Source: Kiritimatiellia bacterium
Lineage (GTDB): Bacteria > Verrucomicrobiota > Kiritimatiellia > RFP12 > UBA1067
Direction of reading: 5' to 3'
DNA length: 52,752 nt
Assembly: GCA_017525225.1 (NCBI GenBank)
Contig: JAFXTB010000012.1
Location: 1-52,752, forward strand
Below, in pieces: positions 3,011 to 48,909 of the stretch. The first letter of the stretch is position 1. Each line of letters starts with the position of its first letter. Both the position numbers and the translations under genes were made by a program. The notes under the pieces are model-generated. The model was not told the origin of the DNA. It did no database searches and saw nothing but the letters and a program-made list of their open reading frames with translations.

Positions 3011-3047
3011 GCGCCAATGGGCATCAACCCGTTGGCGCAATTTTTTT
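3011..3047 (+). terminator. Rho-independent terminator
   Basis: GCGCCAATGGG (3011-3021), loop CATCAA, CCCGTTGGCGC (3028-3038), then AA and seven T (3041-3047). The stem is 11 bp with a single T-G wobble. It closes the transcript of the propeller/LamG gene and isolates the mraZ promoter immediately downstream. Confidence 0.93.
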
Positions 3048-3059
3048 CAATTTTCACCC

Positions 3060-3104
3060 TTGACGGGCGTGGGGCGATGTGGCATAATGTGGGGCGAAGT
3101 GTGG
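3060..3104 (+). promoter_or_regulatory. mraZ promoter with MraZ box array
   Basis: TTGACG (3060-3065), 17 bp, CATAAT (3083-3088) preceded by TGG. GTGG recurs at 3069, 3079 and 3089, and a related GTGTGG lies at 3099: exact 10-bp phasing covering the spacer, the -10 and the start site. MraZ of other bacteria binds TGGG-like direct repeats at 10-bp spacing and represses its own operon. Autorepression here follows from that knowledge plus the layout. Confidence 0.88.
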
Positions 3105-3146
3105 CGGCAGTGTCTCTGTCGCCGGAAAAAAAGGAAAAAAGCCCAG

Positions 3147-4600: not shown

Positions 4601-4601
4601 C

Positions 4602-5072
4602 ATGAAGAGAAACAAGAGAGTGAAGAAGTATTCGCGCTGTGCGGTCAACTCCGTCAACGCGGTGGCGCTTCTCGTGCTCATGTTCTTCGCGATGATGGTG
4701 TACTGGGCCCAGGACGCGCACTGCAACGAGCTCTCACAGGAGATCGGCAAGGCCGAGAAGGAGCTTAAGAAGCTCGAGAGCGACTACGAGCGGGAGGTGT
4801 CCAGCTGGGACGAGCTGAAGACGCCGGACAATCTGCGGCAGGCGCTCATCCGCCATGGCATCGACATGGTGCAGACGAATCCCGGCCAGGTCATCAACAT
4901 GAATGCCAGCGGCAAACCCATGCCGGGGCAGATGTCGGTCGCGCGGATCCGCCAGCGCCAGGGTCGTGTGGATCGCGTGGCAAGCTCGCAGGTCGTTCCG
5001 CGCACGTACCCGGTGGCACCGCGCGCCGCCATGCCGCGCACCGTCCGCCGGTCCGCCACGACCCGCCGATGA
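4602..5072 (+). CDS. ftsL: FtsL-like cell division protein
   Basis: A 156-residue small bitopic membrane protein in the position of ftsL between rsmH and ftsI. A basic cytoplasmic N-terminus (MKRNKRVKKYSR) is followed by one membrane segment (about residues 20-40, AVALLVLMFFAMMVYW) and a heptad-like coiled coil (about 44-70, ISQ-type leucines with many Glu/Lys). It then has an FtsL-like stretch, LKTPDNLRQALIRHGIDMV. The proline/arginine-rich C-terminus is not conserved in the family as I know it. Known FtsL forms a complex with FtsB, FtsQ and FtsI/FtsW at the septum. Identity rests on topology and position more than on sequence. Confidence 0.8.
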   Translation: MKRNKRVKKYSRCAVNSVNAVALLVLMFFAMMVYWAQDAHCNELSQEIGKAEKELKKLESDYEREVSSWDELKTPDNLRQALIRHGIDMVQTNPGQVINMNASGKPMPGQMSVARIRQRQGRVDRVASSQVVPRTYPVAPRAAMPRTVRRSATTRR

Positions 5073-5099
5073 ACGCATGCCTGAGGGAACGCGCGGCGA

Positions 5100-8459: not shown

Positions 8460-8478
8460 AGTCTGATGGGAGGTGGAT

Positions 8479-9798
8479 ATGAAGTTTTTCGACAGAGTGC
8501 GGGAGCTGGAGCTCCTGAAGGAAATCGAAGAGCGTAGTCATCGGACGGCGCAGTTTACGGTTGTCGTCGGGCGTCGCCGGGTAGGCAAGACGTCGCTCAT
8601 TCTGAAAGCGTGCGAGGGCAAGGAATTCGCCTACCTTTTCGTAGAGAGGATGGCGGAGAGCGACTTGTGCGCGGTTTTCCAGCGGGAGCTTGAAGAGCGT
8701 TTTGGCGAGCAGATACTGGGGCGGGCCGAGAAGTTTACGGATGTCTTCGAGGCGATGATGAAGCTTTCGGTCAAGCGTCCGATTACCGTGGTCATTGACG
8801 AGTTTCAGGAATTTCGCAAGGTGAACATGTCCGTCTTTTCGGGAATTCAGAAGATTTGGGACCTCTACAAGGACAGGTCGAAGATCAACTTGATCGTTTC
8901 CGGTTCCGTGTACACGCTCATCCAGAAGATATTCAAGACGAAGAAGGCAGCTCTTTATGGTCGCGAGACGGCCTTCATCAAGATCGAGCCGTTCGGGGTC
9001 GCGGTGCTGAAGGAGATTCTTGCGGAATACAAGCCAAAGTACGGCAAGGAGGATCTTCTCGCCTTGTGGAGTTTGACGGGCGGCGTTGCCAAGTATGTGG
9101 AGATTTTGATGGATCGCGGGGCGACGTCCTTCGCACGGATGGTGCAGACGATCGTCCGTGAGGATTCCGTTCTCCTTGAGGAGGGCCGAGCTGTGCTGGT
9201 GGAAGAGTTCGAGAAGGAATACGGGGTTTATTTTTCAGTAATGTCGGCAATTGCCAGCGGGCGGAACACGCGCAATGAGATTTCACAGGCGCTTGGACGC
9301 GACGTGGGTGGCTATCTGACGCGCCTGGAGAGGGATTACGCGCTTATTTCGCGCAGGCAACCGCTTTTCGCCAAGGAATCGTCCAAGGGTGCACGCTATC
9401 AGATCGACGACTGTTTCTTCCGCTTCTGGTTCCGCTTCATCTACAAGTACAGTTTTCTGCTCCAGATCAAGGGATATGAAAAGCTGCGAGCGATCATTAC
9501 GCGGGATTATCCGCAGTTCAGCGGCCTGGCATTGGAAAGCTACTTCCGCGAGCTTTTTGCCGAAAGCGGTGAATGGACTCGCCTTGGCAACTGGTGGGAT
9601 CGCAAGGGAGGGAACGAGATCGACCTGATCGCCGAAGACGAGCTGAACGGACGGGTTCTGGTTGCGGAGGTCAAGCGCGAAAAAAGCCGGATCGACTTGG
9701 ATGCACTTCGTGAAAAGTTCAAGGCGTTCACCGAATCGACGGGCAGGTGGCGGAAGGCAAAGCCGGAGTTCGCGGCCCTTTCGATGTCCGAAATGTGA
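8479..9798 (+). CDS. AAA ATPase with C-terminal DUF234-type nuclease-like domain
   Basis: A 439-residue cytoplasmic protein of the archaeal-type ATPase family. Walker A is GRRRVGKT (31-38). Walker B with the following acidic residue is VVIDEFQEF (about 104-112). A middle winged-helix-like part follows (RNTRNEISQALGRDVGGYLTRLE). The C-terminal part, GGNEIDLIAE (about 377-386) and VAEVKRE (about 395-401), is the D...ExK core seen in DUF234 domains, which are related to PD-(D/E)XK nucleases. Known members are widespread but functionally obscure. I chose the ATG at 8479 because GGGAGG lies 5 bases upstream. It sits beside a restriction-modification pair and is lower in GC than the wall genes, so it may be part of a transferred block. 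Confidence 0.88.
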   Translation: MKFFDRVRELELLKEIEERSHRTAQFTVVVGRRRVGKTSLILKACEGKEFAYLFVERMAESDLCAVFQRELEERFGEQILGRAEKFTDVFEAMMKLSVKRPITVVIDEFQEFRKVNMSVFSGIQKIWDLYKDRSKINLIVSGSVYTLIQKIFKTKKAALYGRETAFIKIEPFGVAVLKEILAEYKPKYGKEDLLALWSLTGGVAKYVEILMDRGATSFARMVQTIVREDSVLLEEGRAVLVEEFEKEYGVYFSVMSAIASGRNTRNEISQALGRDVGGYLTRLERDYALISRRQPLFAKESSKGARYQIDDCFFRFWFRFIYKYSFLLQIKGYEKLRAIITRDYPQFSGLALESYFRELFAESGEWTRLGNWWDRKGGNEIDLIAEDELNGRVLVAEVKREKSRIDLDALREKFKAFTESTGRWRKAKPEFAALSMSEM

Positions 9799-9855
9799 CG
9801 TGCAAAGAATTATTAATCGTGTGATTTAGAACATACTCCACCATTCAGAATTTGC

Positions 9856-9861
9856 TATAAT
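9856..9861 (+). promoter_or_regulatory. -10 box of the restriction gene
   Basis: TATAAT ends 8 bases before the ATG at 9870, so the predicted mRNA would start within about two bases of the start codon. No ribosome binding site fits. A -35 is not evident. Confidence 0.65.
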
Positions 9862-9869
9862 GTCGCGCC

Positions 9870-10961
9870 ATGAAGAAGCACTCTGCCAGATTTGAACTTC
9901 ATTCCGCAGGCAAGATGCGGATAGAGGATTTGTTCGTAGATTCGCAAGCGGAAACTGGTGTAAGCATTCCAACGAACGTTCGTACAGACATCAACGATGT
10001 CATAAACGGTACGCACAAGACGTTCAGGTATATGCTTGTCACGGGGTTGCTTGCCGCTGTCACCGACGAAAAGCTGCATCCCCGTTGCCTTCAGGTCACC
10101 TCCGGTGTCGATGGAGCGTTTGACGCGCGATCATTCTGCCAGGCTGTGATCGTTCCCTTCGAGAAGACGTTCTTGAAGGGGCGGCTTGGTGGATCCAATG
10201 AACCTTATGCCAACAAGCCCGCTCGCTTCGAGATGATTGAAAAATCGAATAAAGTCAGAAAAGGCGGAGATGCGATCCTTCTGAATAAGCTCTATGATGT
10301 ACTTGAGTATGTCCGTTCGCTTCGCATGAAAGAGCGCGAAATCGTGTTCAAATATGCAATGCACCTTGTCATACTGCGGACGCCAAGTACGGCAAGTGTC
10401 GCCAAACTTACCCCTATTGATGGCAGTAAAATATCAACGGACAACTTCTTTGATTTCTTTCAGACCCCAACAAAGGGCGAGTCTGCTGTTGCAACTCTTA
10501 CCGCATTTTTTAGCATATTTTATGGCAGGGATACGAAAGTGGTTGTTCATCCATCGACAGAGTCCGGTGCAAGTAGTAATGAAGTGGGTGACATTGACTT
10601 GATATTCGCTGATGGAAGACGCTATGCGGTTGAAGTCAAGGACAAGGCTTTCACAAAGATTGACGTTGACCATGCATGCGGCAAGGCTGTGATTGCAGGA
10701 GTACGCCGTGTTATCTTTGCCATAGGTAATGCCGCCGAGAAAGTTAATGTTGCAGAGGGCGCACTTGCCGACAAATGGGCGATGAAGGGAATCGAATTGA
10801 CGTTTCTGAGGATTTCTTCATTGTTGGGTGTGGGCATGGCATTGTCAGATGAGAAGACAAGGGGTACAATGGTTCGCGAAGTACTGTCCTCGCTACTTAA
10901 GATGAATGCGTGCGACAGCACGATGAGAGTATTCAAGAATACATTCAAGGTTGACCTCTGA
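9870..10961 (+). CDS. Type II restriction endonuclease, SacI family
   Basis: A 363-residue protein whose LGGSNEPYANKPARFEM stretch (about residues 109-125) and neighbouring conserved block match my memory of the SacI restriction endonuclease family. A PD-(D/E)XK-like catalytic core is visible: D243 in GDIDLIF, then E255-V-K257 in YAVEVKDK. It should cut unmethylated DNA; SacI itself recognises GAGCTC, but the specificity here is untested. The stop shares one base with the start of the downstream C5 methyltransferase (TGATG), the expected restriction-modification arrangement. The gene is visibly AT-richer than the surrounding chromosome and uses AT-ending codons more freely, which suggests recent acquisition. 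The -10 box sits 8 bases upstream, suggesting a leaderless message. Confidence 0.82.
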   Translation: MKKHSARFELHSAGKMRIEDLFVDSQAETGVSIPTNVRTDINDVINGTHKTFRYMLVTGLLAAVTDEKLHPRCLQVTSGVDGAFDARSFCQAVIVPFEKTFLKGRLGGSNEPYANKPARFEMIEKSNKVRKGGDAILLNKLYDVLEYVRSLRMKEREIVFKYAMHLVILRTPSTASVAKLTPIDGSKISTDNFFDFFQTPTKGESAVATLTAFFSIFYGRDTKVVVHPSTESGASSNEVGDIDLIFADGRRYAVEVKDKAFTKIDVDHACGKAVIAGVRRVIFAIGNAAEKVNVAEGALADKWAMKGIELTFLRISSLLGVGMALSDEKTRGTMVREVLSSLLKMNACDSTMRVFKNTFKVDL

Positions 10962-12007
10962 TGAAACGAAATAGGACTATTCGTGCAGTTTCGCTGTTTA
11001 GTGGTGCTGGCGGCATGGATCTCGGCTTTCAGAAAGCCGGTTTCAATATCGTCTGGGCAAATGATTTCAACAAGGCGGCGTGTGAAACTCATGCCGCGAA
11101 TTTCGATTGCGAGATCAAACAGGGCGAAATAGAAGGTTTCGATTACGCGAAAGACATTCCTGATTGCGCGCTTGTTTTTGGTGGTCCGCCCTGCCAAGGG
11201 TTTTCCGTTGCGGGCAAGATGGACCCCAACGACCCTCGAAGCCGATTGGTGTTTGAGTTCCAAAAGGTCGTGGCGGCAAAGCGACCGCGTTACTTTGTCA
11301 TGGAAAACGTATCCGCCCTTGCTAGGTTGGAGAAGTTTGAGGATGTAAGGGCTCGTCTTTTGGACGGATATTCGCGTTTGGGGTACAATGTCGAGTTTCG
11401 TGTTCTTGACAGCCAGTATTTTCTTACGCCTCAGCGAAGAGAACGCATGATTATGATAGGGACTACCGATAGTCTCACATCTTTTCCGTTCCCTCGTCCC
11501 CACAAGAAATTGATTTCGGCACGTAGCATACTTGCTGGATTTGATGCTCCCGGTACAGGAAACAACCTTGGTCGTTGTGATGCGAGGATAACGCTTGCGA
11601 AACGTCCTGTTCTTCGGACGTCTGCCTATGCAGGAATGCTTTTTAACGGTCTAGGCAGACCGATAGACCTTGATCGTCCTTGTCAGACGTTACCAGCGTC
11701 AATGGGAGGGAACAAGACACCATTTATAGACACGCATTGGTTGAGAAATCCATCGGGCGACAATTGGCTGAAGAAGATTCATGCTATTGCCATGTCTGGA
11801 AAATCAATTAGCAATTTATCTGTTCCGTCATATGTCAGGCGTATAACAGTGTCCGAGGCCGCTGCGCTTCAGGGTTTCCCCAAGTCTTTCAAATTCTGCG
11901 GCTCTCGCTGTGACCAGTATAGACAAATTGGAAATTCAGTTCCTCCTCCGTTTGCTTACTGCATTGCCGTCGAGGTCATGAAAAGGTTTGTTGCAGAGCA
12001 AAAGTGA
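10961..12007 (+). CDS. DNA (cytosine-5)-methyltransferase
   Basis: A 348-residue C5-methyltransferase. Motif I is SLFSGAGGMDLGF (about residues 12-24) for S-adenosylmethionine. Motif IV GGPPCQGFS carries the catalytic Cys78, motif VI MENVSAL, motif VIII RRERM, and motif X QIGNSVPPPFA near the end. The target-recognition region lies between motifs VIII and IX. It is the cognate modification enzyme for the SacI-family nuclease with which it overlaps by one base, protecting host DNA. Codon usage and base composition resemble the nuclease gene, so the two probably moved together. Its 3' end abuts the tail of a different methyltransferase gene. Confidence 0.95.
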   Translation: MKRNRTIRAVSLFSGAGGMDLGFQKAGFNIVWANDFNKAACETHAANFDCEIKQGEIEGFDYAKDIPDCALVFGGPPCQGFSVAGKMDPNDPRSRLVFEFQKVVAAKRPRYFVMENVSALARLEKFEDVRARLLDGYSRLGYNVEFRVLDSQYFLTPQRRERMIMIGTTDSLTSFPFPRPHKKLISARSILAGFDAPGTGNNLGRCDARITLAKRPVLRTSAYAGMLFNGLGRPIDLDRPCQTLPASMGGNKTPFIDTHWLRNPSGDNWLKKIHAIAMSGKSISNLSVPSYVRRITVSEAAALQGFPKSFKFCGSRCDQYRQIGNSVPPPFAYCIAVEVMKRFVAEQK

Positions 12008-23310: not shown

Positions 23311-26300
23311 GTGAAAAGGCTTGAGACAGGGAAGATGGCATGGGGATCGGCGCTGCTGGCGGCCGCATGGGGGGCTTTCGCCTCCTGCGCCGCAACGCTG
23401 GATGTGACGCGCTTCGGAGCCAAGGCGGATGGCTCCACGGACTCCACCGCCGCCATCCAGAAGGCAATCGACGAATGCTGCGCATCCGGCGGCGGGCGTG
23501 TGCTGGTGCCTGCCGGCGGCGTGTACAAGACCTACACGCTCAACCTCAAGAACAACGTGGAGCTACACATCGATCGCGGCGCAACGCTCAAGTCCGGCGA
23601 GGATCCGTACAAGTTCCCCGAGTTCGCCCCCACCGACGTGTGGAACGTGGAGAGGTCCCCGCGCTTCAACAGGCGCGCCATGTTCTACACGGTAGGCCAG
23701 ACCAATGTCGCCATCACTGGCGCCGGCACGATTGACGGCAACGCCGAGGCGTACCACGAGCGCGTGGACGGCCGCTGGCGGCGGATAAGCCACACAAACA
23801 TCACAGGACGATGCATCTTCTTCGTGGGCTGCCGCGACGTGCGCCTCGACGACGTTCTCATATACCATCCATGCGGATGGAGCACGTGGTTCCTGGACTG
23901 CGACCGCGTCGGCTGCAGGGGTGTGCGCGTGGAGTGCCACCGCGAATTCCCCAACGGCGACGGTCTGCACTTCGGCGGCTGCCGCGACGTGGTGGTGAGC
24001 GACTGCTCGATCGATGCGCAGGATGACGCCCTCATCGTGCGTACGCACCAGGAGCAGATGCGCGTGTCGCGGCCATGCGAGAGGATGGTGTTCGCCAACT
24101 GCATACTGCGCTCCAACCAGAGCGCGATACGCATGGGCTGGACCGGCGACGGTCCCATCCGCGACGTGTCCTTCGACAACATCGTGTGCACCTACTCCCG
24201 GCTTGGCGTGCAGTTCTTCCTGCCGCCGGAACCGCCGCCGCCCGGAGAGTGCGTGGATCCGCCGCGTGGAAGGGGGCTTGTGCCGCCGCCGCGCTCGTCG
24301 CGCCTGCCGTTCTCCGCCGAGAACATCCGCTTCTCCAACATGTCCATCCGCAGCTTCGAGGCCCCGGTGTTCATCGACATCGGTCGCACTGAGAACGTGG
24401 CGTTCATAAGGGATGTCTCGTTCTCGCACTGCCGCTTCAAGGCGCAGAGGCCGCCCGTGGTGAACTGCCGACCGGAGGATGGTGTATCGGACTGGCGTTT
24501 CTCGGATGTCGTATTCGAGATAGCCAAGCCGCGTGGACAGCCGTCCGGACCGCGTTCCGACCGATATGCTTCCTGCGGCTGGTTCGAGAACGTGGGGGGC
24601 GTGGTGCTGGACAACGTGAAATGGACATGGCTTCCACAGGATACGCCGGAGTGGAGCCTCATTCTGGAGCAGGAAGGCTCGAGCAGGCGTGTCTTGGTGC
24701 AGGGGGCACGGCAGAGCTGCCGCGTGGATGAAAGCCGAGGCGGCAGGAAGCGCTACGTATATGATTCGCTTACGGACGGCGAAAAGTCGTGGAAGATAGC
24801 GGTGACGCTCGAATCGACGCCCGTTCCCGGAGGTGTATCCTGGCGCGGCGAAGTTGCGAACAAGGATCCCGGAATGCGCGTGACGGAGTTCGAGGGGCCT
24901 TTCTGCGATGGCATACGTGTTGATCCATCGGAGGCGACGCTCTATGTGCCAGAGGGTATGGGAAGGCGGCTTCGCTTCTTCCCCACGGAAAGGCAGTTCT
25001 CGTCGCTCGCGCCTTTGAAGGGCTGGCATGCGCCGTCATTCTGGCGCAGTACCGGCGATGGAAGGGCGGCCATCTCCACGCCGACCTACCCTTCCTCGCT
25101 CTTCACCATGCCGTGGGTGGCGTTCGACACCGGCTTTGGCACGCGCTATGCAGGCGTGCACGACCCTGCCGCCGCTGCGAAGCGGGCGCAGGTGCGGTGG
25201 AGCCCGCGCGAGAACTCGGCGGCGATCGCCTTCAAGCACTTCATCTCGCTTCCGTCGGGCGGCGCATGGAAGATCCCCGAGACAGTGTTCTCGGAGGAGG
25301 ATGGCGGATGGCACGCCGCCGCGAGGCGCTACCGCGCATGGTACGACTCCGTGCACTCCATGCGCGCCGCAGCGCCTGACTGGACGCGCGACCTCACCGG
25401 CTGGCTGCTCGTCATCATGAAGCAGCAGAACGAAGAGCTCATGTGGCCCTACACCGACATCCCGAAGCTCTGCGATGCCGCCGAGAGGCGCGGCCTCAAC
25501 TGCATCGGGCTATTCGGCTGGACGGTTGGCGGGCACGACCATCTCTATCCCGACTACGATGCCGACCCGAAGATGGGTGGCGCCGAGGCGCTCAAGGCTG
25601 GGATCGCGGAAGCCCGCCGCCGCGGCATCCGCGTGTGCATCTATGCGAATGGACAGCTCCAGCAGGTAGGCGCCACGAAGTTCTGGGAGGAGCACGGCCG
25701 CAGGCTCGCTATCCGCAACAGGGATGGTTCGCCGGTGATACAGACATACCACAAGTTCAAGGACATCCCGAAGTACGAGTTTGCTCTCGGCTGCCTTCGC
25801 GGCCAGCCGTGGCACGATCGGATGCTCTCGCTCGCCCGCCAGGCCTCTGGCTTCGGCGCGGATGCCATAATCTACGACCAGCTCGGCATGTTCGCGCCCT
25901 TCGAATGCTGGGGCGAGGGTCACGGACATCCCACGCCCTGCTATACCTACGGCGTGGAGCGGCCAGGATTCCTGCGCTCCATTGCGGATGCCATCCACAA
26001 TGAGAACCCCGGCTTCGCGGTGTTCACGGAGGGACTGCACGATACGGTGCTGGATTCAGTCGCATTCTTCCACGGCTGCGTGTACGGCACGTTCCCGGCA
26101 GAGACGGCATCGGTTCGCGCAAGGGCGTCGGGGAAGAAGGAGAAGTCCGACGCGTTCCCCGAACTAAGTCGCTACACCTTCCCCGAGGTACTGTCGACGA
26201 TACGCTTCTCGACGCCGATGGACACGCGCTCGCTGGTGAACTATGCGGCTGTGATGGGGTTGCGCCATGAGATAGAGGTGCGCTACGCCCCGGACAGGAG

Positions 26301-26703
26301 GTATCTGCTGGAGGACAGGGTGCCTGCGCGGGAGGACTACGGGACCGTGAACCATCTGCCATCGCTGGCCGACATGCGCAGCGTACCGCCGGCGGAGGCG
26401 AGCGCGTACCTGAAGGCGATGTGCGATTTCCAGCGTGTGCACGCGAAGCATATGATGCGCGGCCGGTTCGTGGACGATGAAGGCTTCACATGTGCCGATG
26501 CCGGGCTTGTGGCGAAGCGTTTCGTGGCGGAGGACGGTACGAGCGCGGTATGCGTGTGGAATATCGGCGAGAAGCATGCGGAGGTGAAGATCGATGGCCT
26601 GGGCGCGCAGACCGGCGTGTTCGCGCCGGGCGGCGAACCAACCGAAGGACCGCTCGCACCCGATTCGATCCGGCTCTACACTTTCAAGAAGGATACACCG
26701 TGA
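23311..26703 (+). CDS. Secreted fusion of GH28-like beta-helix and DUF6259-like TIM barrel
   Basis: A 1130-residue protein. After a signal peptide (about 8-28) comes a pectate-lyase/GH28 beta-helix (about 29-470). It begins LDVTRFGAKADGSTDSTAAIQKAI and has FPNGDGLHFGGC and DAQDDALIVRTH, where the aspartates match the GH28 active-site positions. From about 500 to 1120 follows a beta-sandwich plus barrel of DUF6259 type (GWLLVIMKQQNEELMWPY, IGLFGWTVGGHD, GADAIIYDQLGM), ending in a small beta domain. The downstream gene encodes a separate protein of the same barrel type. The start is GTG, set by AAGGAG 5 bases upstream; an ATG at 23307 is out of frame and stops at once. Substrate unknown. Confidence 0.82.
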   Translation: MKRLETGKMAWGSALLAAAWGAFASCAATLDVTRFGAKADGSTDSTAAIQKAIDECCASGGGRVLVPAGGVYKTYTLNLKNNVELHIDRGATLKSGEDPYKFPEFAPTDVWNVERSPRFNRRAMFYTVGQTNVAITGAGTIDGNAEAYHERVDGRWRRISHTNITGRCIFFVGCRDVRLDDVLIYHPCGWSTWFLDCDRVGCRGVRVECHREFPNGDGLHFGGCRDVVVSDCSIDAQDDALIVRTHQEQMRVSRPCERMVFANCILRSNQSAIRMGWTGDGPIRDVSFDNIVCTYSRLGVQFFLPPEPPPPGECVDPPRGRGLVPPPRSSRLPFSAENIRFSNMSIRSFEAPVFIDIGRTENVAFIRDVSFSHCRFKAQRPPVVNCRPEDGVSDWRFSDVVFEIAKPRGQPSGPRSDRYASCGWFENVGGVVLDNVKWTWLPQDTPEWSLILEQEGSSRRVLVQGARQSCRVDESRGGRKRYVYDSLTDGEKSWKIAVTLESTPVPGGVSWRGEVANKDPGMRVTEFEGPFCDGIRVDPSEATLYVPEGMGRRLRFFPTERQFSSLAPLKGWHAPSFWRSTGDGRAAISTPTYPSSLFTMPWVAFDTGFGTRYAGVHDPAAAAKRAQVRWSPRENSAAIAFKHFISLPSGGAWKIPETVFSEEDGGWHAAARRYRAWYDSVHSMRAAAPDWTRDLTGWLLVIMKQQNEELMWPYTDIPKLCDAAERRGLNCIGLFGWTVGGHDHLYPDYDADPKMGGAEALKAGIAEARRRGIRVCIYANGQLQQVGATKFWEEHGRRLAIRNRDGSPVIQTYHKFKDIPKYEFALGCLRGQPWHDRMLSLARQASGFGADAIIYDQLGMFAPFECWGEGHGHPTPCYTYGVERPGFLRSIADAIHNENPGFAVFTEGLHDTVLDSVAFFHGCVYGTFPAETASVRARASGKKEKSDAFPELSRYTFPEVLSTIRFSTPMDTRSLVNYAAVMGLRHEIEVRYAPDRRYLLEDRVPAREDYGTVNHLPSLADMRSVPPAEASAYLKAMCDFQRVHAKHMMRGRFVDDEGFTCADAGLVAKRFVAEDGTSAVCVWNIGEKHAEVKIDGLGAQTGVFAPGGEPTEGPLAPDSIRLYTFKKDTP

Positions 26704-39411: not shown

Positions 39412-40794
39412 ATGGCCAAGAAGTGCTGCTGCATCAAGGATACCGGATTCCAGTCGCCCGCCAGGGCGGTGGACTTCCTGCGCGCCCACGCAGGCGACAA
39501 GCCCGCGTACGTGGCGATCGCATGGGAACGCGAGGATGGCCATGTCTACCGCTACGATCTCGCCATCCCCCGCCGCATCGATCCGGCGTGTCTGCCGGGC
39601 GTACGCCATCTGGCCGAACGCATCGTGAAGTTCGTCCTGTGGGCGGCTGGCGGCTGGAAGCTCTATCTGGCCGGCTCGGACGAGATCGTCAAGCCCATCG
39701 CGAAGGACTACACGAAGAAGGGCCGTCGCGCGTTCGACTATGGCTTCTACAACGACCTCTATGGCAAGCCGTTCGAGGTGGTGATCCTTCCCTACAAGAA
39801 GATGCCGGTCACGAACGAGCGCGAGGTGATCGTCAAGAACAACACGAACGGCAACCGCATCGGTTTCGACCTTGGCGCGAGCGACTTCAAGATCTCCGCG
39901 CTCAAGAAGGGCAAGGTGGTGTTCTCCAAGGAGTTCCCGTGGGATCCGCGTCCGCAGGCCGATCCCGAATACCACTACACGAAGCTTTCCGCCGGTCTCG
40001 AGGAGGCCGCGCAGGCGCTTGGCGGCAAGGTGGACGCCATCGGCGGCTCCACGGCCGGCACGCTGGTGGGCAAGAAGCTCGGCGTGGCCTCGCTCATCCG
40101 CGGCGTGAAGGAGAAGAATCCCGCCAAGTATGGAGTTGCGCAGCATCTCTTCGACCGCATCGAGGAGGAGTGGCAGGTGCCTTTCGAGGTGTTCAACGAT
40201 GGCGACGTCACCGCCCTCGCCGGCGCGATCACGACGAAGCGCAACGGCATACTGGGCGTGGCGATGGGCTCTTCCGAGGCTGTCGGCTACATCAACCCGA
40301 AGGGCGCGCTCACGGGTCGCATCAGCGAACTTGCGTTCGCGCCCGTGGACCTCAATCCGAACGCCGCCACCGATGAATGGTCGGGTGACTTCGGCGTAGG
40401 CGCGATGTACTTCTCGCAGCAGGCGGTGAACTTCCTCGCGGAGCGCTTCGGCTTCAAGTTCCCGAAGTCGATGAAGCTGCCCGAGCGTCTCAAGGTCGTC
40501 CAGGCCGCGATGGCCGAAGGCGACGAGAAGGCCCTACGGATATATCTGATGATCGGCCGGTACCTGGCCAACGCCACGAAGTGGTACCACGAGTTCTACG
40601 ACTTCCAGAACCTCATGATCCTCGGCAGGGTCACGTCCGGCCTGGGCGGCTCGATAATCCTCGAGACCGCGAAGATGGGCCTGGAGGCGATCGACCCCGT
40701 GCTGGCGGAACAGGTCGAGATCTTCATGCCGGACGAGAAGGCCCGCCGCCTCGGCCAGTCCGTGGCGGCCGCCCAGATCCCGGTTGTGAAGTGA
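39412..40794 (+). CDS. ROK family sugar kinase-like protein
   Basis: A 460-residue protein. An extra N-terminal domain of about 150 residues precedes an actin-like ROK/hexokinase core: phosphate-1-like GFDLGASDFKISALKKGKVV (about 155), VFNDGDVTALAGAI (about 262), and GVAMGSSEAVGYINPKG with the adenosine-type GLGGS near the end. I do not see the usual CXCGXXGC zinc motif of ROK regulators, nor a helix-turn-helix. The likely reaction is ATP-dependent phosphorylation of a sugar. It starts a run with an N-acetylhexosamine kinase-like gene, so amino sugar use is plausible. Confidence 0.78.
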   Translation: MAKKCCCIKDTGFQSPARAVDFLRAHAGDKPAYVAIAWEREDGHVYRYDLAIPRRIDPACLPGVRHLAERIVKFVLWAAGGWKLYLAGSDEIVKPIAKDYTKKGRRAFDYGFYNDLYGKPFEVVILPYKKMPVTNEREVIVKNNTNGNRIGFDLGASDFKISALKKGKVVFSKEFPWDPRPQADPEYHYTKLSAGLEEAAQALGGKVDAIGGSTAGTLVGKKLGVASLIRGVKEKNPAKYGVAQHLFDRIEEEWQVPFEVFNDGDVTALAGAITTKRNGILGVAMGSSEAVGYINPKGALTGRISELAFAPVDLNPNAATDEWSGDFGVGAMYFSQQAVNFLAERFGFKFPKSMKLPERLKVVQAAMAEGDEKALRIYLMIGRYLANATKWYHEFYDFQNLMILGRVTSGLGGSIILETAKMGLEAIDPVLAEQVEIFMPDEKARRLGQSVAAAQIPVVK

Positions 40795-40813
40795 CGGCAT
40801 GGGGGCAGCGACG

Positions 40814-42112
40814 ATGAGGCGCATCCTTTCGGCAGCCTGCGCGGTGGCCGCGATCTTCTCCGTTGCGGCGGAGGAGCTCGCGCCGTTCCCGAAGTGGGGC
40901 GAGCCGTATGCGATCACGAAGGGACCCCACGAGCACCTGTTCGCGAGCTATTTCGCGATAGATTCGTGGAGCCCGAACCATCGCTACGTATCCGTGCTGG
41001 AGACCGACCTCAACGGTCGTCTGCCGGAGGCTGGCGAGCGTTGCACGCTCGGGCTTGTCGATCTCCAGGACGGCAACAGGTTCATCCCGATCTCCACCAC
41101 CGCCTGCTGGAACTTCCAGGAGGCGGCGATGGCGCATTGGATCGACGACGACACGATCCTCTTCAACGACCTGCGCGATGGCAGGTTCGTCACCGTGATT
41201 CTCAACTGGAAGACAAAGGCGGAACGCATAGTGCCGTATCCGGTGAGCGCCGTCTCTGCGGACCGTACATGGGCCGTCTCCATAAACTACGCGCGCCTCT
41301 CGCTCACGCGGCCCGACTACGGCTACGCCGGCCCCGGGCAGGATTCGCGCGAGACGGTCACATGGCCCGAGGACGACGGTCTCTGGGTCGTAGACCTCAA
41401 GACAGACGAGGCGAAGCTGATCCTCAGCGTGGCGCAGGGGCGCAGCCAGATGCCGGCCGTGAAGACCGTCCCCGGGAAGCCTGGTTGCCCGCTCGCGTAC
41501 TACTGCCACACCGTCATATCAAAGGACGACCGGAAGATATTCTTCCTCGCCCGTTCCGTGGACTGGTACGAGAAGACGACGCACAAGGCATCGACTTGGC
41601 ACACCACGGCGTTCACGATCGACAAGGACGGCACCTGCCTGCGCCGCTGCTTCAAGGACGGCTGGGCGGGGTCCCACTTCAACTGGGCGCCGGACGGTTC
41701 GCACAAGATGCTCGTGACCGTCATCTGGGATGGCGAGAAGCACGAACACTGGACCCGTTCCGCATGGAGTCCGGTCGAATTCACGGTAGGGCAGGAGGAC
41801 AAGGTTCGCCGCATAGGTGCCGGCGTGCTAGACCTCGACTGGCACTGCGTCTATTCGCCCGACGGTAAGTTCATGAGCGGCGACACCTACTGGACCAGGA
41901 ACTTCGAACGTCCGTGGGTGCTGGTGCGCCTGGCCGACGGCATGACGATGCCGATGGGGGCGTTCTATGTACCGCCGGCCTACCGCCAGGGATACTGGCG
42001 TTGCGACCTGCATGCTCGGTATCGTTCCGATGGCAGGCAGATAGGCATCAATTCGGTCCATGAGGGAAGCCGCCAGGTGTATGTGCGCGACATAGTTCCG
42101 GCGGCGCGTTAA
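40814..42112 (+). CDS. Secreted beta-propeller protein, oligogalacturonate lyase-like
   Basis: A 432-residue protein with a signal peptide (MRRILSAACAVAAIFSVAAEE). It has propeller blades such as SPNHRYVSVLETDLNGRLPE, FNWAPDGSHKMLVTVIWDG, HCVYSPDGKFMSGD and RSDGRQIGINSVHEGSRQVYVRDI. The overall pattern recalls PL22 oligogalacturonate lyase-like and WD40-like PD40 propellers, but I do not see enough active-site detail to claim lyase activity. The in-frame ATG at 40799 is an alternative start. It is 19 bases after the ROK gene, and the next gene follows after an excellent AAGGAGG. Confidence 0.75.
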   Translation: MRRILSAACAVAAIFSVAAEELAPFPKWGEPYAITKGPHEHLFASYFAIDSWSPNHRYVSVLETDLNGRLPEAGERCTLGLVDLQDGNRFIPISTTACWNFQEAAMAHWIDDDTILFNDLRDGRFVTVILNWKTKAERIVPYPVSAVSADRTWAVSINYARLSLTRPDYGYAGPGQDSRETVTWPEDDGLWVVDLKTDEAKLILSVAQGRSQMPAVKTVPGKPGCPLAYYCHTVISKDDRKIFFLARSVDWYEKTTHKASTWHTTAFTIDKDGTCLRRCFKDGWAGSHFNWAPDGSHKMLVTVIWDGEKHEHWTRSAWSPVEFTVGQEDKVRRIGAGVLDLDWHCVYSPDGKFMSGDTYWTRNFERPWVLVRLADGMTMPMGAFYVPPAYRQGYWRCDLHARYRSDGRQIGINSVHEGSRQVYVRDIVPAAR

Positions 42113-42128: not shown

Positions 42129-43172
42129 ATGTCCAACAGGACGTACGGCGATGAGGAACTCCGCTCGGTGCTGGCGGGGATGGGCGTCAAGGACGTGCTG
42201 TCCGTGGCGAGATACGGCAGCGGACACATCAACGACACCTTCAAGGTGGACTGCGCATCCGGCGCGAGCTACATACTCCAGCGGATAAACACGGACATCT
42301 TCGATCCGGACATGGTGATGGACAACATACGCCGCGTCACGGAGCACATCCGCGGCAAGGGCAGGCAGTCGCTCGAGGTGGTGGCGTACGAGAAACCCTG
42401 GCGGCTCTACGTGTTCATCAGGGGCGCGCACACTGTTGATCTTATAACCGAGGCCGGACAGGCGTTCAAGGCCGCCAGCGCCTTCGCCGACTTCCAGAAC
42501 GCGCTTGCGGATCTGCCCGCACCGCGCCTCAGGGACATCATTCCCAACTTCCACAACACCGTCTCGCGGCTCGCCCAGCTCGATGCAGCGCTCAAGGCCG
42601 ACGTCAAGGGCCGCGCCGCCACGTGCCGTCCTGAGCTCGACTTTGTGGATGCGCGCCGCGAGGAGGCCGCCCGCATCGTGAACCTCATGGCCGCCGGCGA
42701 CATCCCCGAGCGAACCACGCACAACGACACCAAGATCAACAACGTGATGCTCGATGATTCCACCGGCGAGGGTACATGCGTCATCGACCTGGACACCACC
42801 ATGCCCGGCTGCGCGCTGTACGACTTCGGCGACATGGTCCGCACGTCGACCGCCAACGCCGCCGAGGACGAGAAGGATCTCTCCAAGGTGTTCTCGCGCA
42901 AGGAGTATTTCGAGCAGCTGGTGAGGGGGTATCTAGGCAAGGCCGGATTCCTCAACGAGGCCGAGCGCGCTAACCTCGCCTTCTCAGGCAGGCTCATAAC
43001 CCTTACGATCGGCATACGCTTCCTCGCCGACTATCTCGCGGGCGACACCTACTTCCATACGGCCTACGACGACCACAACCTCGTGCGATGCCGCACGCAG
43101 CTGAAGATGGTGCGTTCCATGGAGGAGCAGTCCGCGGAATACGAGGCGATCGTGCGCGCCTGTGCCGGATGA
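42129..43172 (+). CDS. N-acetylhexosamine 1-kinase-like phosphotransferase
   Basis: A 347-residue protein kinase-like fold (APH family) with NahK features. The N-lobe is GSGHINDTFKVD and YILQRINTDIFDPDMVMDNI. The catalytic loop is THNDTKINNVMLDD (about 197-210, Asp and Asn for catalysis and metal), followed by CVIDLDTTMPG with the metal-binding Asp and YDFGDMVR. NahK of bifidobacteria phosphorylates GlcNAc/GalNAc at C1 in the lacto-N-biose pathway. That substrate fits the GH109-like enzyme elsewhere in the window but is inference. AAGGAGG (42114-42120) is a strong ribosome site. The stop overlaps the next start as ATGA. Confidence 0.85.
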   Translation: MSNRTYGDEELRSVLAGMGVKDVLSVARYGSGHINDTFKVDCASGASYILQRINTDIFDPDMVMDNIRRVTEHIRGKGRQSLEVVAYEKPWRLYVFIRGAHTVDLITEAGQAFKAASAFADFQNALADLPAPRLRDIIPNFHNTVSRLAQLDAALKADVKGRAATCRPELDFVDARREEAARIVNLMAAGDIPERTTHNDTKINNVMLDDSTGEGTCVIDLDTTMPGCALYDFGDMVRTSTANAAEDEKDLSKVFSRKEYFEQLVRGYLGKAGFLNEAERANLAFSGRLITLTIGIRFLADYLAGDTYFHTAYDDHNLVRCRTQLKMVRSMEEQSAEYEAIVRACAG

Positions 43173-46100
43173 CGGCCATGAAGCTGCAACTGCTCGCAAC
43201 GTGCGCCTTCGCGGCGCTGGTCGCCTCGGCGGCCGATGCGGTGCTGGTTCCAGACGTGAAGCCTGGCGCACGGGCCGCGGCAAGTGCGGCGCTTGCCGCC
43301 GTGCCGGAGGTGGTGTACGTGACGCATGCCGCGTTCCATCCCGACCACCACAACACGGCAACCATATTCCAGCGCGGAGAGATCAACGAAGGCAGCTACG
43401 ATACACAGGGAGCGCTCAAGGCATGGAACCCGGCGACCGGCGCGACACGTGTGATCGTGCCGGAGAAGAAGGGCCGCACCATCCGCGATCCGGAGGTGGA
43501 CTGGGATGGACGACGGATCGTGTTTGCCATGCGCGACGGCCGGCCCGACGACTACCACATCTACGTGGTGAACGCGGACGGCACAGGTCTCAGGCAGCTC
43601 ACGCGCGAGAAGGGCGTTTCCGACATAGACCCCGCCTTCCTGCCGGATGGCGACATCGTGTTTGCGTCCACGCGCAACCCCAAGTACTGCATGTGCAACC
43701 GCCATATCATGGCGAACCTCTACCGCATGGAGGCGGATGGCGCCAACATCCATCAGATAGGGGTGTCAACGCTCTTCGAGGGACATCCGTCGATCCTGCC
43801 CGATGGTCGCGTGCTCTACGACCGATGGGAGTACGTTGACCGCAACTTCGGGGATGCGCAGGGACTGTGGACATGCAATCCGGATGGCACCCGGCACGCC
43901 ATCTGGTGGGGCAACAACACCACGAGCCCGGGCGGCGTCATCAATGCGCGCGCCGTGGGCGGCGATTCCACCAAGGCGATCGCGATCCTCGGAAGCTGCC
44001 ATGACAGGCCGTGGGGGGCGCTGGGTCTCATCGACCGGACGCGCGGCGTGGATGGACGCGACCCGGTGCTTCGTACATGGCCGGCATCCTATCGCGACCG
44101 CATCCATGATGGCGGCAAGGAGGACTTCGATTCCACACGGTCGCTGCCGTGCAAGTATGCGGATCCATTCCCGATAGACGACTCGCACTTCCTGGCCGTC
44201 CGCATGAAAGACCGCGGCGGCGAGATGTCGCTTGTGTATCTGGATCTCGACGGCAACGAGGTTGAACTGCTTGCCGACGCGCCGGGCATCTGGTCGCCGG
44301 TGGCGCTGCGGCCATCGAGAAAGCCCGTGGTGCAGAGCCGCCAGAGGAACTTCGACGCGCCCAATGCGCCCGGACGCTTCTATCTGCAGAATGTCCATGT
44401 GAGCACGCACATGCAGGGCGTGGAGCCGGGTACGGTGAAGGCGTTGCGCGTGGTGGAGTCGCCGGAGAAACGCACATGGACCGGTCCAAGTGGCTGGTTC
44501 GGCCATGGCGAGGAAGCGCCGGCGATGAACTGGCATTCCTTCGAGAACAAGCGCGTACTCGGCACCGTACCGGTAGAGGAGGATGGAAGCGCGTACTTCG
44601 AGGTGCCTGCGAACACGTTCGTATATTTCCAGGCGCTTGACGCGGAGGGGAAGATGGTGCAGTCGATGCGCTCGGGCGTGTTCGTGCAGCCTGGCGAGAC
44701 ATACGGATGCGTCGGCTGCCACGAGAACCGCGTGGGCGAGGCCGCGCCAGTCGCCGCCAAGCCCCTCGCCATGCGCCGCGAACCGTCCAGACTGGACGGC
44801 GCCTACAACCTCGCCGGGCTGGAGAAGGGCACGCCGCCGCATTTCTACAGCTTCCAGCGCGAGGTACAGCCAGTCTTCACGGCTCGTTGCGCCAGCTGCC
44901 ACGACTATGGCACCAAGGCCGGTGAGAAGCTGAACCTCAGCGGAGATCGCGGTGCGTTCTTCTGTACCAGCTATGTAGACCTGTGGGCGCTGGGATATGT
45001 GAAGTGCATTGGGGGCGGTCCTGCGCCAATACAGCCCGCATACAGCTGGGGTGCGCATGCCTCGAGACTCACGAAGAAGCTCTATGGACACGCCCGGGTG
45101 AACCTTACGGACGAGGAACGTGCTCGCATCATCACATGGATGGACCTGAACGCTCCATACTATCCAAGATATGAATGCGCCTATCCTTCCAATCCCGGGG
45201 GGCGCATGCCGCTCACCTTCAAGGAGCGCAAGACCCTCGAGGAGCTCTGCGGCGCCGCCATCGCGAACGTGCACGGCAAGCGGCAGCGTGAACAGCTGGA
45301 TTTCGACAGGCCCGCCTGCTCGCGCATCCTGGCAGGCATCGCGGGCACTTCCGCCCACGCGCAGGCGCTCGCCATCATAGAGGAGGGGGCGGCGCGCCTT
45401 CGCGCCCGTCCGCGCTGCGACATGGATGGGTTCGTGCCATGCGAGATCGACCAGTCCCGTGAAGCGAGATACCAGCGGCGCCTTGAATCCGAACGCCGTG
45501 TCTACGATGCGATCCGCGCAGGACGGAAGGTCTATGATGATGCGGACGCGGTCGTGTTCCATGCAGGCCGGACGGAGATCGTGGTCGAATCCAACGCCTG
45601 TGACACGGTACGCCTCGCGGCGGAGGAAGCGCGCGAATTCATGGGCGGTGTGCTGGGCTGCGACGTGCCGATAGTGACAACGCCCACGCCTTCGCGCACG
45701 GCGCTCTTCCTGGGTCCAAGCCGCTGGGCGGACGCCGATGGCGTCACGACCAACGGTCTGAAGCGGGATGGGTTCAGGATCCGCACGGCGGCGAACAGGG
45801 TCTACGTAGTGGGTATCGACGATCCGGTGGTGAATGCGCACCGCAACCGACAGAAAGGCGGCATCTGGCTCCAGAACTTCGAGAGGGCGACCGTGTTTGG
45901 CGTGTATGACTTCCTGGAGCGTTTCGCGGGGGTGAGGTTCTATTTCCCTGGCGAGCTGGGTACGGTGGTCCCGAAGTCCGCGAAGATAGAGGTGCCGCCG
46001 ACCGACATCGTGGAGGCCCCAGCCAACACGGTTCGCCGCTATACGATATACGAATCGGGCTGTCCATACTTCGAGGGAGAGAAACCTGACGAGCTGCGCC

Positions 46101-47752
46101 ATCCGATGAAGACTGTGAACTGGTGGCGGACGCGCATGGAGACGGAGTACATGCCATGCTGCCACGGGCAGGTCAAGTTCCGCTACATCGAGCGTTTCGC
46201 CAAGTCGCATCCGGAGTACTTCGCGCTGCTCGAAGACGGACGCCGCCACAATTCCTTCAAGATCACCTATCCAGGGCATCCAGGCCAGCTCTGCCACACG
46301 TCGGCCGTCTGGGAGGAGCTGTACCAGGACGTGAAAAGCTACCTTTCCGGCGAGGATGCGTCCGCCCGCCTGCTGCCGGCCTATGGTTCGCCTGGCTCCG
46401 CAGGAAAGGTCAGGTACGGCTGGGGCGTCAACTGCCAGCGCCGCGACATCGTGGACGTGATGCCGCAGGACGGGATGATCAAGTGTGCGTGCGAGCGGTG
46501 CAAGGCTGAGTGGGCGAAGGCCCCGGAGATAGGGTGGGCGTCCGATCTCATCTGGGGGAACGTGGTCCGCCTGGCCAATCGGCTCAAGGCGGAGGGGGTG
46601 AAGGGACGCGTCTCCATGATGGCCTACAGCAAGTATCGACGGGTTCCCGACTTCCCGTTCCCCGACAATGTGGAGGTAATGGTGGCGGAACGCGGCCCGT
46701 GGACCGAGAACGACCCGCCCGAACGCGCCAGGGAGCTTTCGGAGATCCGTGCCTGGCACGACAAGATCGGTCGCAAGGTCTCGCTATGGACCTACCTGAA
46801 CAAGCCGAATTGCCTGCCGGACGTGCCGAATTGCACTCCAAAGGCGATTGCCAGATACTACCAGCAACTCGCGCCGCTCATATACGGGTCGTTCATGCAG
46901 GACTTCTCCGACCACTGGCTCAGCCAGTACCTTGGCCGCTACGTCTTCGGTAAGGTGATGTGGAACCCTGCCGTGGACGTGGAGGCGATCCTCGACGAGC
47001 ACCACCGCCTGATGTTCGGTCCGGCGGCACCGGAGATGAAACGCTTCTTCGAGGAGATTGAGAGGATCTACATCACGCGCGTGGCCGGACGGACGATCGA
47101 CACGGCGCTCGGACCGCAGTCGGAGAAGCCGAGCCCGTACGATCTCTTTGTCCGCATATACACGCCAGAAACCGTGAATGCGCTTGAAGCGCTCTTCGAT
47201 GCAGCGTCTGCGAAGGTAGCCGCGGGTTCTCTCGAGGCGAGGCGCATCGCTCTGATCCGCCGCGAGTTGTTCGATCCGCTCGCTCGGCGGGCGAGAGAGT
47301 ACGTGTCGTCAATCGACGTGGAGAAGGGGCTTGCGCGCGACATGGCGTCGAAGAAGCCGAATCTCGTGCCGGTCAAAGTCGTACCTGACGGCAACGGACA
47401 TCTTGTCGGGAAGCCGCCGCAGACGCTCTTCGGCATAACGCTGCGCGACGCCGGTGGAAAGTCGTCGCTGAAGCCAGGCAGGCGCTACCGGCTGTCCTAT
47501 TGCGTGAGACTCGAGAACGTCAAGCCGGTCAAGTTAAACGGCGGCGTGAACGTCAGCGTCTGGGCGGGCATGAACTTCTGGATGCCGCAAGTGCCGTTCT
47601 CGGGCACGCAGGACCGGACCTACCAGAGCTTCGAGTTCACGGCGGGGGCGGACTCCATCACGAAAGGACCGTCGCTGCTGCGGTTGAGGCTGGTCAATGC
47701 GACCGGTGACGCCTGGTTCGACAACGTACGAATCGAGGAAGTCGATGATTGA
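43169..47752 (+). CDS. Giant secreted fusion: PD40 propeller, HzsA-like di-haem region, DUF4838, C-terminal CBM
   Basis: A 1527-residue protein with a signal peptide (KLQLLATCAFAALVASAADA). Residues about 40-430 are a propeller (VDWDGRRIVFAMRDGRPDDYHIYVVNADG, SILPDGRVLYDRWEYVDR). Residues about 440-700 resemble the middle part of hydrazine synthase alpha-like proteins (VPVEEDGSAYFEVPA, FVYFQALDAEG) and carry two haem c sites, CVGCH (514-518) and CASCH (574-578). From about 780 to 1330 a DUF4838/alpha-glucuronidase-like region follows (TVRLAAEEAREFMGGVLGC, FERATVFGVYDFLERFAGVRFYFPGE). About 1390-1527 is a carbohydrate-binding-like sandwich. The start at 43169 overlaps the kinase stop; 43178 is possible. 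Redox or glycan function is open. Confidence 0.85.
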   Translation: MTAMKLQLLATCAFAALVASAADAVLVPDVKPGARAAASAALAAVPEVVYVTHAAFHPDHHNTATIFQRGEINEGSYDTQGALKAWNPATGATRVIVPEKKGRTIRDPEVDWDGRRIVFAMRDGRPDDYHIYVVNADGTGLRQLTREKGVSDIDPAFLPDGDIVFASTRNPKYCMCNRHIMANLYRMEADGANIHQIGVSTLFEGHPSILPDGRVLYDRWEYVDRNFGDAQGLWTCNPDGTRHAIWWGNNTTSPGGVINARAVGGDSTKAIAILGSCHDRPWGALGLIDRTRGVDGRDPVLRTWPASYRDRIHDGGKEDFDSTRSLPCKYADPFPIDDSHFLAVRMKDRGGEMSLVYLDLDGNEVELLADAPGIWSPVALRPSRKPVVQSRQRNFDAPNAPGRFYLQNVHVSTHMQGVEPGTVKALRVVESPEKRTWTGPSGWFGHGEEAPAMNWHSFENKRVLGTVPVEEDGSAYFEVPANTFVYFQALDAEGKMVQSMRSGVFVQPGETYGCVGCHENRVGEAAPVAAKPLAMRREPSRLDGAYNLAGLEKGTPPHFYSFQREVQPVFTARCASCHDYGTKAGEKLNLSGDRGAFFCTSYVDLWALGYVKCIGGGPAPIQPAYSWGAHASRLTKKLYGHARVNLTDEERARIITWMDLNAPYYPRYECAYPSNPGGRMPLTFKERKTLEELCGAAIANVHGKRQREQLDFDRPACSRILAGIAGTSAHAQALAIIEEGAARLRARPRCDMDGFVPCEIDQSREARYQRRLESERRVYDAIRAGRKVYDDADAVVFHAGRTEIVVESNACDTVRLAAEEAREFMGGVLGCDVPIVTTPTPSRTALFLGPSRWADADGVTTNGLKRDGFRIRTAANRVYVVGIDDPVVNAHRNRQKGGIWLQNFERATVFGVYDFLERFAGVRFYFPGELGTVVPKSAKIEVPPTDIVEAPANTVRRYTIYESGCPYFEGEKPDELRHPMKTVNWWRTRMETEYMPCCHGQVKFRYIERFAKSHPEYFALLEDGRRHNSFKITYPGHPGQLCHTSAVWEELYQDVKSYLSGEDASARLLPAYGSPGSAGKVRYGWGVNCQRRDIVDVMPQDGMIKCACERCKAEWAKAPEIGWASDLIWGNVVRLANRLKAEGVKGRVSMMAYSKYRRVPDFPFPDNVEVMVAERGPWTENDPPERARELSEIRAWHDKIGRKVSLWTYLNKPNCLPDVPNCTPKAIARYYQQLAPLIYGSFMQDFSDHWLSQYLGRYVFGKVMWNPAVDVEAILDEHHRLMFGPAAPEMKRFFEEIERIYITRVAGRTIDTALGPQSEKPSPYDLFVRIYTPETVNALEALFDAASAKVAAGSLEARRIALIRRELFDPLARRAREYVSSIDVEKGLARDMASKKPNLVPVKVVPDGNGHLVGKPPQTLFGITLRDAGGKSSLKPGRRYRLSYCVRLENVKPVKLNGGVNVSVWAGMNFWMPQVPFSGTQDRTYQSFEFTAGADSITKGPSLLRLRLVNATGDAWFDNVRIEEVDD

Positions 47753-47802: not shown

Positions 47803-48909
47803 GTGAAGAGAGTGTTTGCATGCGCCATGCTGCTGACTGCGGGGGGCGCTTGCGCCGCACCCCTTGCAAACACAAATGAACTCGTCTGGACGGACGGGAC
47901 GAACCTCCCGCAGGAAGGACGTGCATTTTCCGATACGCAAAGTCCGTACTGGCGCATCGGGAAGAAGCATCTTGCGAGCATTGCACCTGTCAACCGCGGC
48001 GTTGCGGGGCATGCCTCAGAGACCTCCGGGATCTGCTACAGGTTCGTCACGGACGCGGACGAGCTGACCTTGCGGTGGTCGCTTTCCCGCGCCAAACTGG
48101 AATTTCCCCACATGCCGGCGACTGGCGTGAGCGGCATCGACATCTACGCATGGACGCCCGAAGGGGGGTGGCGCTACGTTAACTGGCGCTTTACCAGTCC
48201 ACGCAACTACCCTACGCAGCAGAAGGGGAACTTCTATACAATCAGATGGAAGCCGGGCCAGCCGTGCTGGATATATCTGCCGTTGTACAACGGTATCACC
48301 GATTTCGCGGTCGGCGTCGCCAAGGGGAAGGTCCTAAAGCCGCTTCCACCGCGCGGCAACGGCGTGACGAACCCCGTCGTGTTCTACGGATCGTCGATCA
48401 CTCAGGGCGGATGCGCTTCGCGTCCGGGTCTGTCGTTTACCGCCATTGCCGGACGGCTGGGCGACTTCCCCGTGGTGAACATGGGCTTCTCCGGAAGTGC
48501 GCACATGGAGCCCGAGATCTGCGACATGCTGGCGGATATCGACGCGAGCTGCTATGTACTCGATCCCCTTGGAAACATGGATGTGGGCGAGGTGAACGCG
48601 CGCTACGAGAGGTTCGTTCGCAGGCTGCATGTGGCAAGGCCGGACGTTCCGATCGTCCTTACAGCCGTCAGCTGGCAATTGGACCGCCGTCCATCGCCGC
48701 GCGTGAAGGCGGCGCATGCGATATACGAGCGACTCAAGCGCGAGGATCCTCGCGAATGGCGCAATCTCCACTGGATCTCCGAGGACGAGCTTGCGCAGGA
48801 CGACGGCGAATGTACCGTGGACGGATGCCATGCGAACGACTGGGGCATGATCCAGATGGGGCGAGCCTGCGCCAAGACCGTGCGAGCGGCGCTGGGGCTC
48901 CAACGTTGA
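47803..48909 (+). CDS. Secreted SGNH/GDSL hydrolase
   Basis: A 368-residue protein with a signal peptide (MKRVFACAMLLTAGGACAA). An N-terminal beta-sandwich (about 25-180) with WRYVNWRFTSPRNYP precedes an SGNH hydrolase domain. Block I is FYGSSITQGGCASRPG with the nucleophile serine, then NMGFSGSAHMEPE (block II glycine), LDPLGNMD (block III), and DGCHANDWGM with the Asp-His pair. Members deacetylate or de-esterify glycans; substrate unknown. It starts with GTG, 50 bases after the giant fusion gene and behind AAAGAGG. Its 3' end is 29 bases from the tRNA-Ala fragment. Confidence 0.88.
   Translation: MKRVFACAMLLTAGGACAAPLANTNELVWTDGTNLPQEGRAFSDTQSPYWRIGKKHLASIAPVNRGVAGHASETSGICYRFVTDADELTLRWSLSRAKLEFPHMPATGVSGIDIYAWTPEGGWRYVNWRFTSPRNYPTQQKGNFYTIRWKPGQPCWIYLPLYNGITDFAVGVAKGKVLKPLPPRGNGVTNPVVFYGSSITQGGCASRPGLSFTAIAGRLGDFPVVNMGFSGSAHMEPEICDMLADIDASCYVLDPLGNMDVGEVNARYERFVRRLHVARPDVPIVLTAVSWQLDRRPSPRVKAAHAIYERLKREDPREWRNLHWISEDELAQDDGECTVDGCHANDWGMIQMGRACAKTVRAALGLQR

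Follow-up and report, generated by a model that had tools for sequence, protein, structure and literature searches.

A di-haem HzsA-like protein joined to a DUF4838 glycosidase-type module in a Kiritimatiellia bacterium: a probably genuine and rare fusion

Introduction

What would a haem protein related to hydrazine synthase do if it were joined, in one chain, to a module of glycosidase type? The question is raised by a gene of a Kiritimatiellia bacterium (assembly GCA_017525225.1, contig JAFXTB010000012.1) that lies in a stretch of 52,752 nucleotides, which was analysed as a whole and which we call the window. An earlier note, made from the letters alone, had read this gene as a propeller, an HzsA-like region with two haem c sites, a DUF4838 region and a C-terminal sandwich, and had proposed oxidative or electron-linked glycan processing.

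Covalent attachment of a haem domain to a carbohydrate-active domain is known from cellobiose dehydrogenase and from cytochrome-linked LPMOs, where the haem domain serves a flavin or copper centre. The protein described here is unlike these, as its folds and cofactors are unrelated and it has no sign of a flavin or copper centre. In PVC bacteria, planctomycete-type (PSCyt) cytochromes, encoded near glycan genes, join haem c to carbohydrate-binding modules (PMC5615132), and the principle thus has precedent. The present protein resembles them in joining a haem c domain to a carbohydrate-related module, but its haem domain is different (no Pfam match to PSCyt, DUF1549 or DUF1553 was found in it up to an E value of 0.1), and the module joined to it has a complete fold of glycosidase type, beyond a mere binding module. 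In the literature searched, we found no HzsA-like protein combined with a glycosidase fold, no established function for non-anammox relatives of hydrazine synthase alpha, nothing on hydrazine synthase in Kiritimatiellota and a single mention of DUF4838, in one paper.

Results

The gene is one uninterrupted frame, from the ATG at 43169 to a stop ending at 47752. Its stop-to-stop frame extends 5′ into the upstream kinase gene, and the ATG overlaps the stop of that gene as ATGA; an alternative ATG at 43178 would retain the signal peptide. The features of the gene and its neighbours are as follows.

42129..43172, + strand: neighbouring N-acetylhexosamine 1-kinase (NahK; PDB 4ocj, E 2.5e-82), overlapping the fusion gene by 4 bases
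43169..47752, + strand: whole fusion gene, HzsA-like di-haem half and DUF4838 half, 1527 aa
43169..43234, + strand: signal peptide, residues about 1-22 (peak hydrophobicity in residues 4-28; read from the sequence)
43298..44398, + strand: beta-propeller of TolB/HZS-alpha type, residues about 44-410 (model pLDDT 85.6; TolB Z 27, 5c2v_A Z 34.3)
44429..44725, + strand: HZS_alpha middle domain, residues 421-519 (Pfam PF18582, 121.7 bits against a cut-off of 26.6)
44708..44722, + strand: haem site I, CVGCH, residues 514-518 (residue 522 is Val, against Tyr591 in HZS; PMC12758564)
44846..45163, + strand: cytochrome-c-like domain, residues about 560-665 (alignment to 5c2v; model)
44888..44902, + strand: haem site II, CASCH, residues 574-578 (distal ligand likely H641, which aligns with HZS His772)
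45206..45538, + strand: helical tail, conserved, residues 680-790, at which unfused orthologs naturally end
45536..45544, + strand: fusion junction, KVYDD followed directly by ADAVV, residues 790-792, without a linker
45542..46003, + strand: N-terminal alpha/beta domain of the DUF4838 half, GH67/GH84/GH115 type, residues about 792-945
46034..47038, + strand: DUF4838 barrel core, residues about 956-1290 (D1101 invariant; Q1244, against Glu in most relatives)
47423..47740, + strand: C-terminal beta-sandwich, CBM-like, residues about 1419-1524 (4d0q profile match, E 1.6e-5; weak matches to CBM chains; model)
47803..48909, + strand: neighbouring exported SGNH/GDSL hydrolase with a GxDLY domain, 3′ of the fusion gene

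The domain order of the earlier note proved correct by Pfam and by the structural models, the single exported chain was borne out by one open frame with a signal peptide, and both CXXCH motifs were confirmed where it had placed them; no other CXXCH occurs in the 1527 residues. Its remark that the gene lies downstream of sugar kinases held only in part: NahK is clear, but the frame at 39412-40794 has only a weak ROK match, and that at 40799-42112, which by eye resembles an exported propeller-type protein, gave no match in database searches. No gene for a redox partner linked to the fusion gene was found in the window. Elsewhere in the window, a further multi-module protein joins a GH28/pectate-lyase-like half to DUF6259 (23311-26703, + strand), and adjoining genes for an AAA ATPase, a SacI-type restriction endonuclease and a C5 cytosine methylase form a restriction-modification island (8473-12007, + strand).

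The HzsA-like identity of the N-terminal half was upheld by the Pfam match and by the AlphaFold model of residues 1-791 (mean pLDDT 85.6), which matches hydrazine synthase alpha (5c2v_A) with a Z score of 34.3 over 570 residues at 2.9 A. As in anammox HzsA (PDB 5C2V), a propeller is followed by an HZS_alpha middle domain and a cytochrome-c-like domain, with two CXXCH sites and an equivalent of His772, H641. Both CXXCH sites are invariant in 37/37 relatives and H641 is kept in at least 90% of them; haem I is probably ligated by His518, and haem II probably retains both His578 and His641 as its ligands. The half is thus predicted to be a c-type cytochrome, with an export signal and, in the genome, the means of maturation: the cytochrome c maturation genes that the earlier note had suggested seeking, and whose absence would have overturned its reading, are present. 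A single open frame has WWQFDPKEMWSL and matches both ResB and CcsA; it encodes a CcsBA-type system II cytochrome c synthase.

The same half could be taken for a hydrazine-synthase-like nitrogen enzyme, given its HZS_alpha domain and fold and a single propeller-MauG (beta-gamma-like) homolog in the genome. That homolog, however, lies on a different contig (C72), away from the window, and no beta or gamma genes stand alongside the fusion gene. The position of Tyr591, four residues past the CXXCH His of haem I, is Val522 (CVGCHENRVG), with an ENRV-type motif also in close orthologs, and the score against the NCBIfam hydrazine synthase alpha equivalog (NF052339) is 67.5 bits against a cut-off of 800; on these two grounds the half is not a hydrazine synthase. 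Key residues are likewise missing from published non-anammox homologs, which lack Tyr591 and were judged incapable of hydrazine formation (PMC12758564). A nitrogen enzyme is, therefore, scarcely credible. These homologs, from Planctomycetota and Desulfobacterota, have lost Tyr591 and in some cases have two haem sites, with propeller-MauG partners near some (PMC12758564). The haem half of the fusion is like them in having two haem sites without Tyr591, and unlike them in that the distal His is retained, the orthologs lie in sugar clusters and one is joined to a glycosidase-type domain; sugar or carbohydrate genes did not come up in a term search of the text of PMC12758564.

The C-terminal half is of the DUF4838 glycan type, as the earlier note had it: Pfam DUF4838 (PF16126) matches with 104.9 bits (cut-off 26.6; best stretch 1093-1294), and the predicted fold (AlphaFold model of residues 792-1527, pLDDT 88.5) resembles GH115 (Z 18.9), GH84 (Z 16.0) and GH67 (Z 12.9). 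Like these families, the modelled half has an N-terminal alpha/beta domain followed by a barrel, although at 11-15% identity the likeness is one of fold level. The last 110 residues resemble carbohydrate-binding sandwiches by weak profile matches. In an alignment of 22 DUF4838 sequences D1096 and D1101 are invariant, whereas position 1244, a Glu in 18/22, is Gln in the window, in the G128 relative and in one paralog. The replacement of this conserved Glu makes glycosidase activity doubtful; if the Glu is catalytic, the present copy is altered or binding-only. DUF4838 might act as a lectin-like glycan binder that localizes the cytochrome without hydrolase activity, a variant compatible with our preferred explanation below. 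This is consistent with Q1244, shared with the G128 ortholog, and with the CBM-like sandwich C-terminal to DUF4838; we consider it unlikely, since the acidic D1096 and D1101 are still present and the adjacent Asp, D1245, could substitute.

Is the join genuine? Nearly all HzsA-like orthologs that reach their own end terminate within about 10 residues of query residue 790, and the alignment of unfused DUF4838 proteins to the query starts at about residue 793, immediately past their signal peptide; this makes the join look genuine. The DUF4838 half has no signal peptide of its own, and the chain has no internal one. GC, GC3 and codon use are alike in the two halves, and like those of neighbouring genes. 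Pairwise dN/dS is about 0.10 for the DUF4838 half (against G128) and about 0.16 for the HzsA-like half (against G057), which suggests purifying selection on both halves. The pattern fits a natural fusion via a deletion between co-oriented genes. The earlier note had named two genes run together by a sequencing error as a finding that would overturn its reading; from the sequence this appears unlikely, because the in-frame join falls at natural protein ends and codon use matches. An assembly chimera, with the contig uniting two separate loci or organisms, would agree with the fragmentation of the source assembly (180 contigs), with the absence of the exact join from other genomes searched and with the different genera of the closest relatives of the two halves. 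It would not explain why the join is in frame, precisely where one protein naturally ends and the mature form of the other begins, why GC and codon use are equal across it, or why exact 14-base words at the join are common to only one unrelated locus among the loci compared, and we regard a chimera as very improbable. The fusion is, in our judgement, very probably genuine.

The join was queried against 115 genomes of the family and 388 genomes from across the phylum, partly overlapping sets that together make roughly 490 genomes. One half, the other, or both apart were found in 59 of the 115 and 43 of the 388 (counts that include the genome of the window). No gene spanning the join was found in the other genomes of either set, and a scan of the genome contigs found DUF4838 attached to the HzsA-like ortholog in 0/56 orthologous loci. 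The same fusion, which the earlier note had suggested seeking in other Kiritimatiellota, is so far specific to the genome of the window. The fusion is thus probably young, rare and lineage-specific. In the tree, G001 and three g13 genomes form a group with the HzsA-like half (support 0.98); the DUF4838 half falls with G128, of another genus (support 1.0).

Other fusions of the same haem protein were found. In G001, the sole congener among the compared genomes, GH123 and an SGNH hydrolase are N-terminal to the same ortholog; in G055 the ortholog carries DUF5696 at its C-terminus (L080:656-5743:-), and in G047 (L081:4735-9147:+) and G045 PATR-type repeats are C-terminal to it. The G001 protein is one frame of 1951 residues on contig C2 (L042:6372-12224:-), near which we noted by eye a Cas9-like frame (1675-5409) and perhaps Cas1 (774-1670).

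In this lineage DUF4838 itself has expanded as a family and is prone to fusion. It runs in frame, without a stop, from an RluB-type pseudouridine synthase in G001 (L049:4654-7722:-) and from a bacterial sugar transferase in G128 (L078:5765-8578:+), in both cases with the DUF4838 gene keeping its own signal peptide; such joins with unrelated genes indicate that DUF4838 fuses promiscuously. In the genome of the window the RluB ortholog is separate from DUF4838. Other chains hold two DUF4838 copies (L043:4021-8664:+), an FAD oxidoreductase with DUF4838 (L046:4264-9120:-) and an esterase with DUF4838 (L038:3525-7982:-). A long open frame upstream of DUF4838 in L092 resembles reverse-strand noise and was excluded as a fusion.

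These observations bear on an accidental or near-neutral origin, in which a deletion joined neighbouring genes for exported proteins and the halves remain independent, sharing only the signal peptide. Such an origin would fit the occurrence in a single genome, the missing linker, the lack of DUF4838 adjacency in relatives and, in G001 and G128, the in-frame joins of DUF4838 with cytosolic or membrane genes that are clearly unrelated. We find it somewhat unlikely, however, given the clean removal of the signal peptide, the low dN/dS of both halves and the fact that carbohydrate-active domains are also the partners in two further fusions of this haem protein.

The unfused orthologs repeatedly adjoin genes for IclR, Fe-alcohol dehydrogenase, short-chain dehydrogenase, DeoC aldolase and FGGY kinase. 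Neighbourhoods with IclR, Fe-alcohol dehydrogenase, DeoC and FGGY kinase were seen in Kiritimatiellota, Planctomycetota and Bacteroidota, including a polysaccharide locus of Parabacteroides faecalis AGMB00274 (L145) that has, in this order, SusD, IclR, Fe-alcohol dehydrogenase, the HzsA-like gene, GH2, DeoC and FGGY kinase. The link with sugar-catabolism genes is suggestive to strong; the tally consists of counts without a control set, so that the support from synteny is unquantified and is given without a probability. No DUF4838 gene adjoined the unfused orthologs in the flanks examined, and NahK was found in ortholog flanks in one distant case (L117, 34% identity).

Discussion

The fusion probably represents a genuine, new and rare architecture built from known families. 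Tentatively, and at somewhat less than an even chance, we favour a real and probably recent lineage-specific event by which an HzsA-like di-haem c protein gained a DUF4838 module and became a glycan-tethered redox unit. An exported DUF4838 protein, with a GH115/GH84/GH67-like barrel and a CBM-like sandwich, would have lost its signal peptide, and its mature part would have been added to the HzsA-like periplasmic protein where the latter naturally ends. Export would then depend on the HzsA-like signal peptide, and the CcsBA synthase would attach the haem. Haem I, probably ligated by His518, may handle a sugar-derived substrate, while haem II (His578/His641) may give electrons to a partner in the periplasm or take them from it. 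The DUF4838/CBM half would tether the unit to a glycan, perhaps one with hexosamine or uronate, or trim it. Both halves may act on one substrate, and redox chemistry on the released sugar would occur at the glycan.

The fold matches of both halves, the natural protein ends at the join, the low dN/dS, the CcsBA synthase, the sugar-gene neighbourhoods of the orthologs, fusion of the HzsA-like ortholog also to GH123 and SGNH in G001 and to DUF5696 in G055, and the overlap of NahK with the fusion gene from upstream, favour this explanation. Against it stand the presence of the exact fusion in one fragmented assembly only, the lack of DUF4838 next to unfused orthologs in the flanks examined, the promiscuity of DUF4838, Q1244, the lack of a linked redox partner and the absence of NahK near nearly all orthologs. 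Of the interpretation in the earlier note, the di-haem half, the DUF4838 half, export and the maturation system stand. Oxidative or electron-linked glycan processing did not gain the same support: it is plausible, and the Gln at 1244, the occurrence of the fusion in one genome and the absence of DUF4838 beside unfused orthologs count against it. The sugar-catabolism genes near the orthologs and the fusions of the same ortholog to further carbohydrate-active domains, which the earlier note could not draw on, support it indirectly. Most likely the protein serves sugar catabolism in the periplasm, as a di-haem oxidoreductase or as an electron carrier, and is here held to a glycan module. Sugar-breakdown genes often adjoin its unfused relatives in several phyla, and it is, therefore, probably an electron-handling part of sugar metabolism. 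Unlike HzsA, a distant relative, it lacks the Tyr591 ligand and linked beta and gamma genes, falls far under the equivalog cut-off and is joined to DUF4838.

The host of the fusion is a gut-type bacterium. A broader proposal, which we put forward as quite unlikely at present, is that in PVC bacteria and Bacteroidota the HzsA-like di-haem proteins form an unrecognized class of periplasmic enzymes, oxidoreductases of sugars or polyols, whose genes lie with IclR/Fe-alcohol dehydrogenase/DeoC/FGGY cassettes and in polysaccharide loci; anammox HzsA would share their ancestry, and the present gene would add a glycosidase-type module covalently. If true, this would bear on the origin of the anammox enzyme. 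The HzsA-like proteins in sugar-catabolism clusters are a more valuable lead than the fusion itself, and Parabacteroides faecalis is a cultured carrier of such a gene. Their placement among sugar genes in three phyla, together with the carbohydrate-active fusions, suggests that they carry out haem-based sugar chemistry in bacteria that degrade glycans, a concrete role that can be tested.
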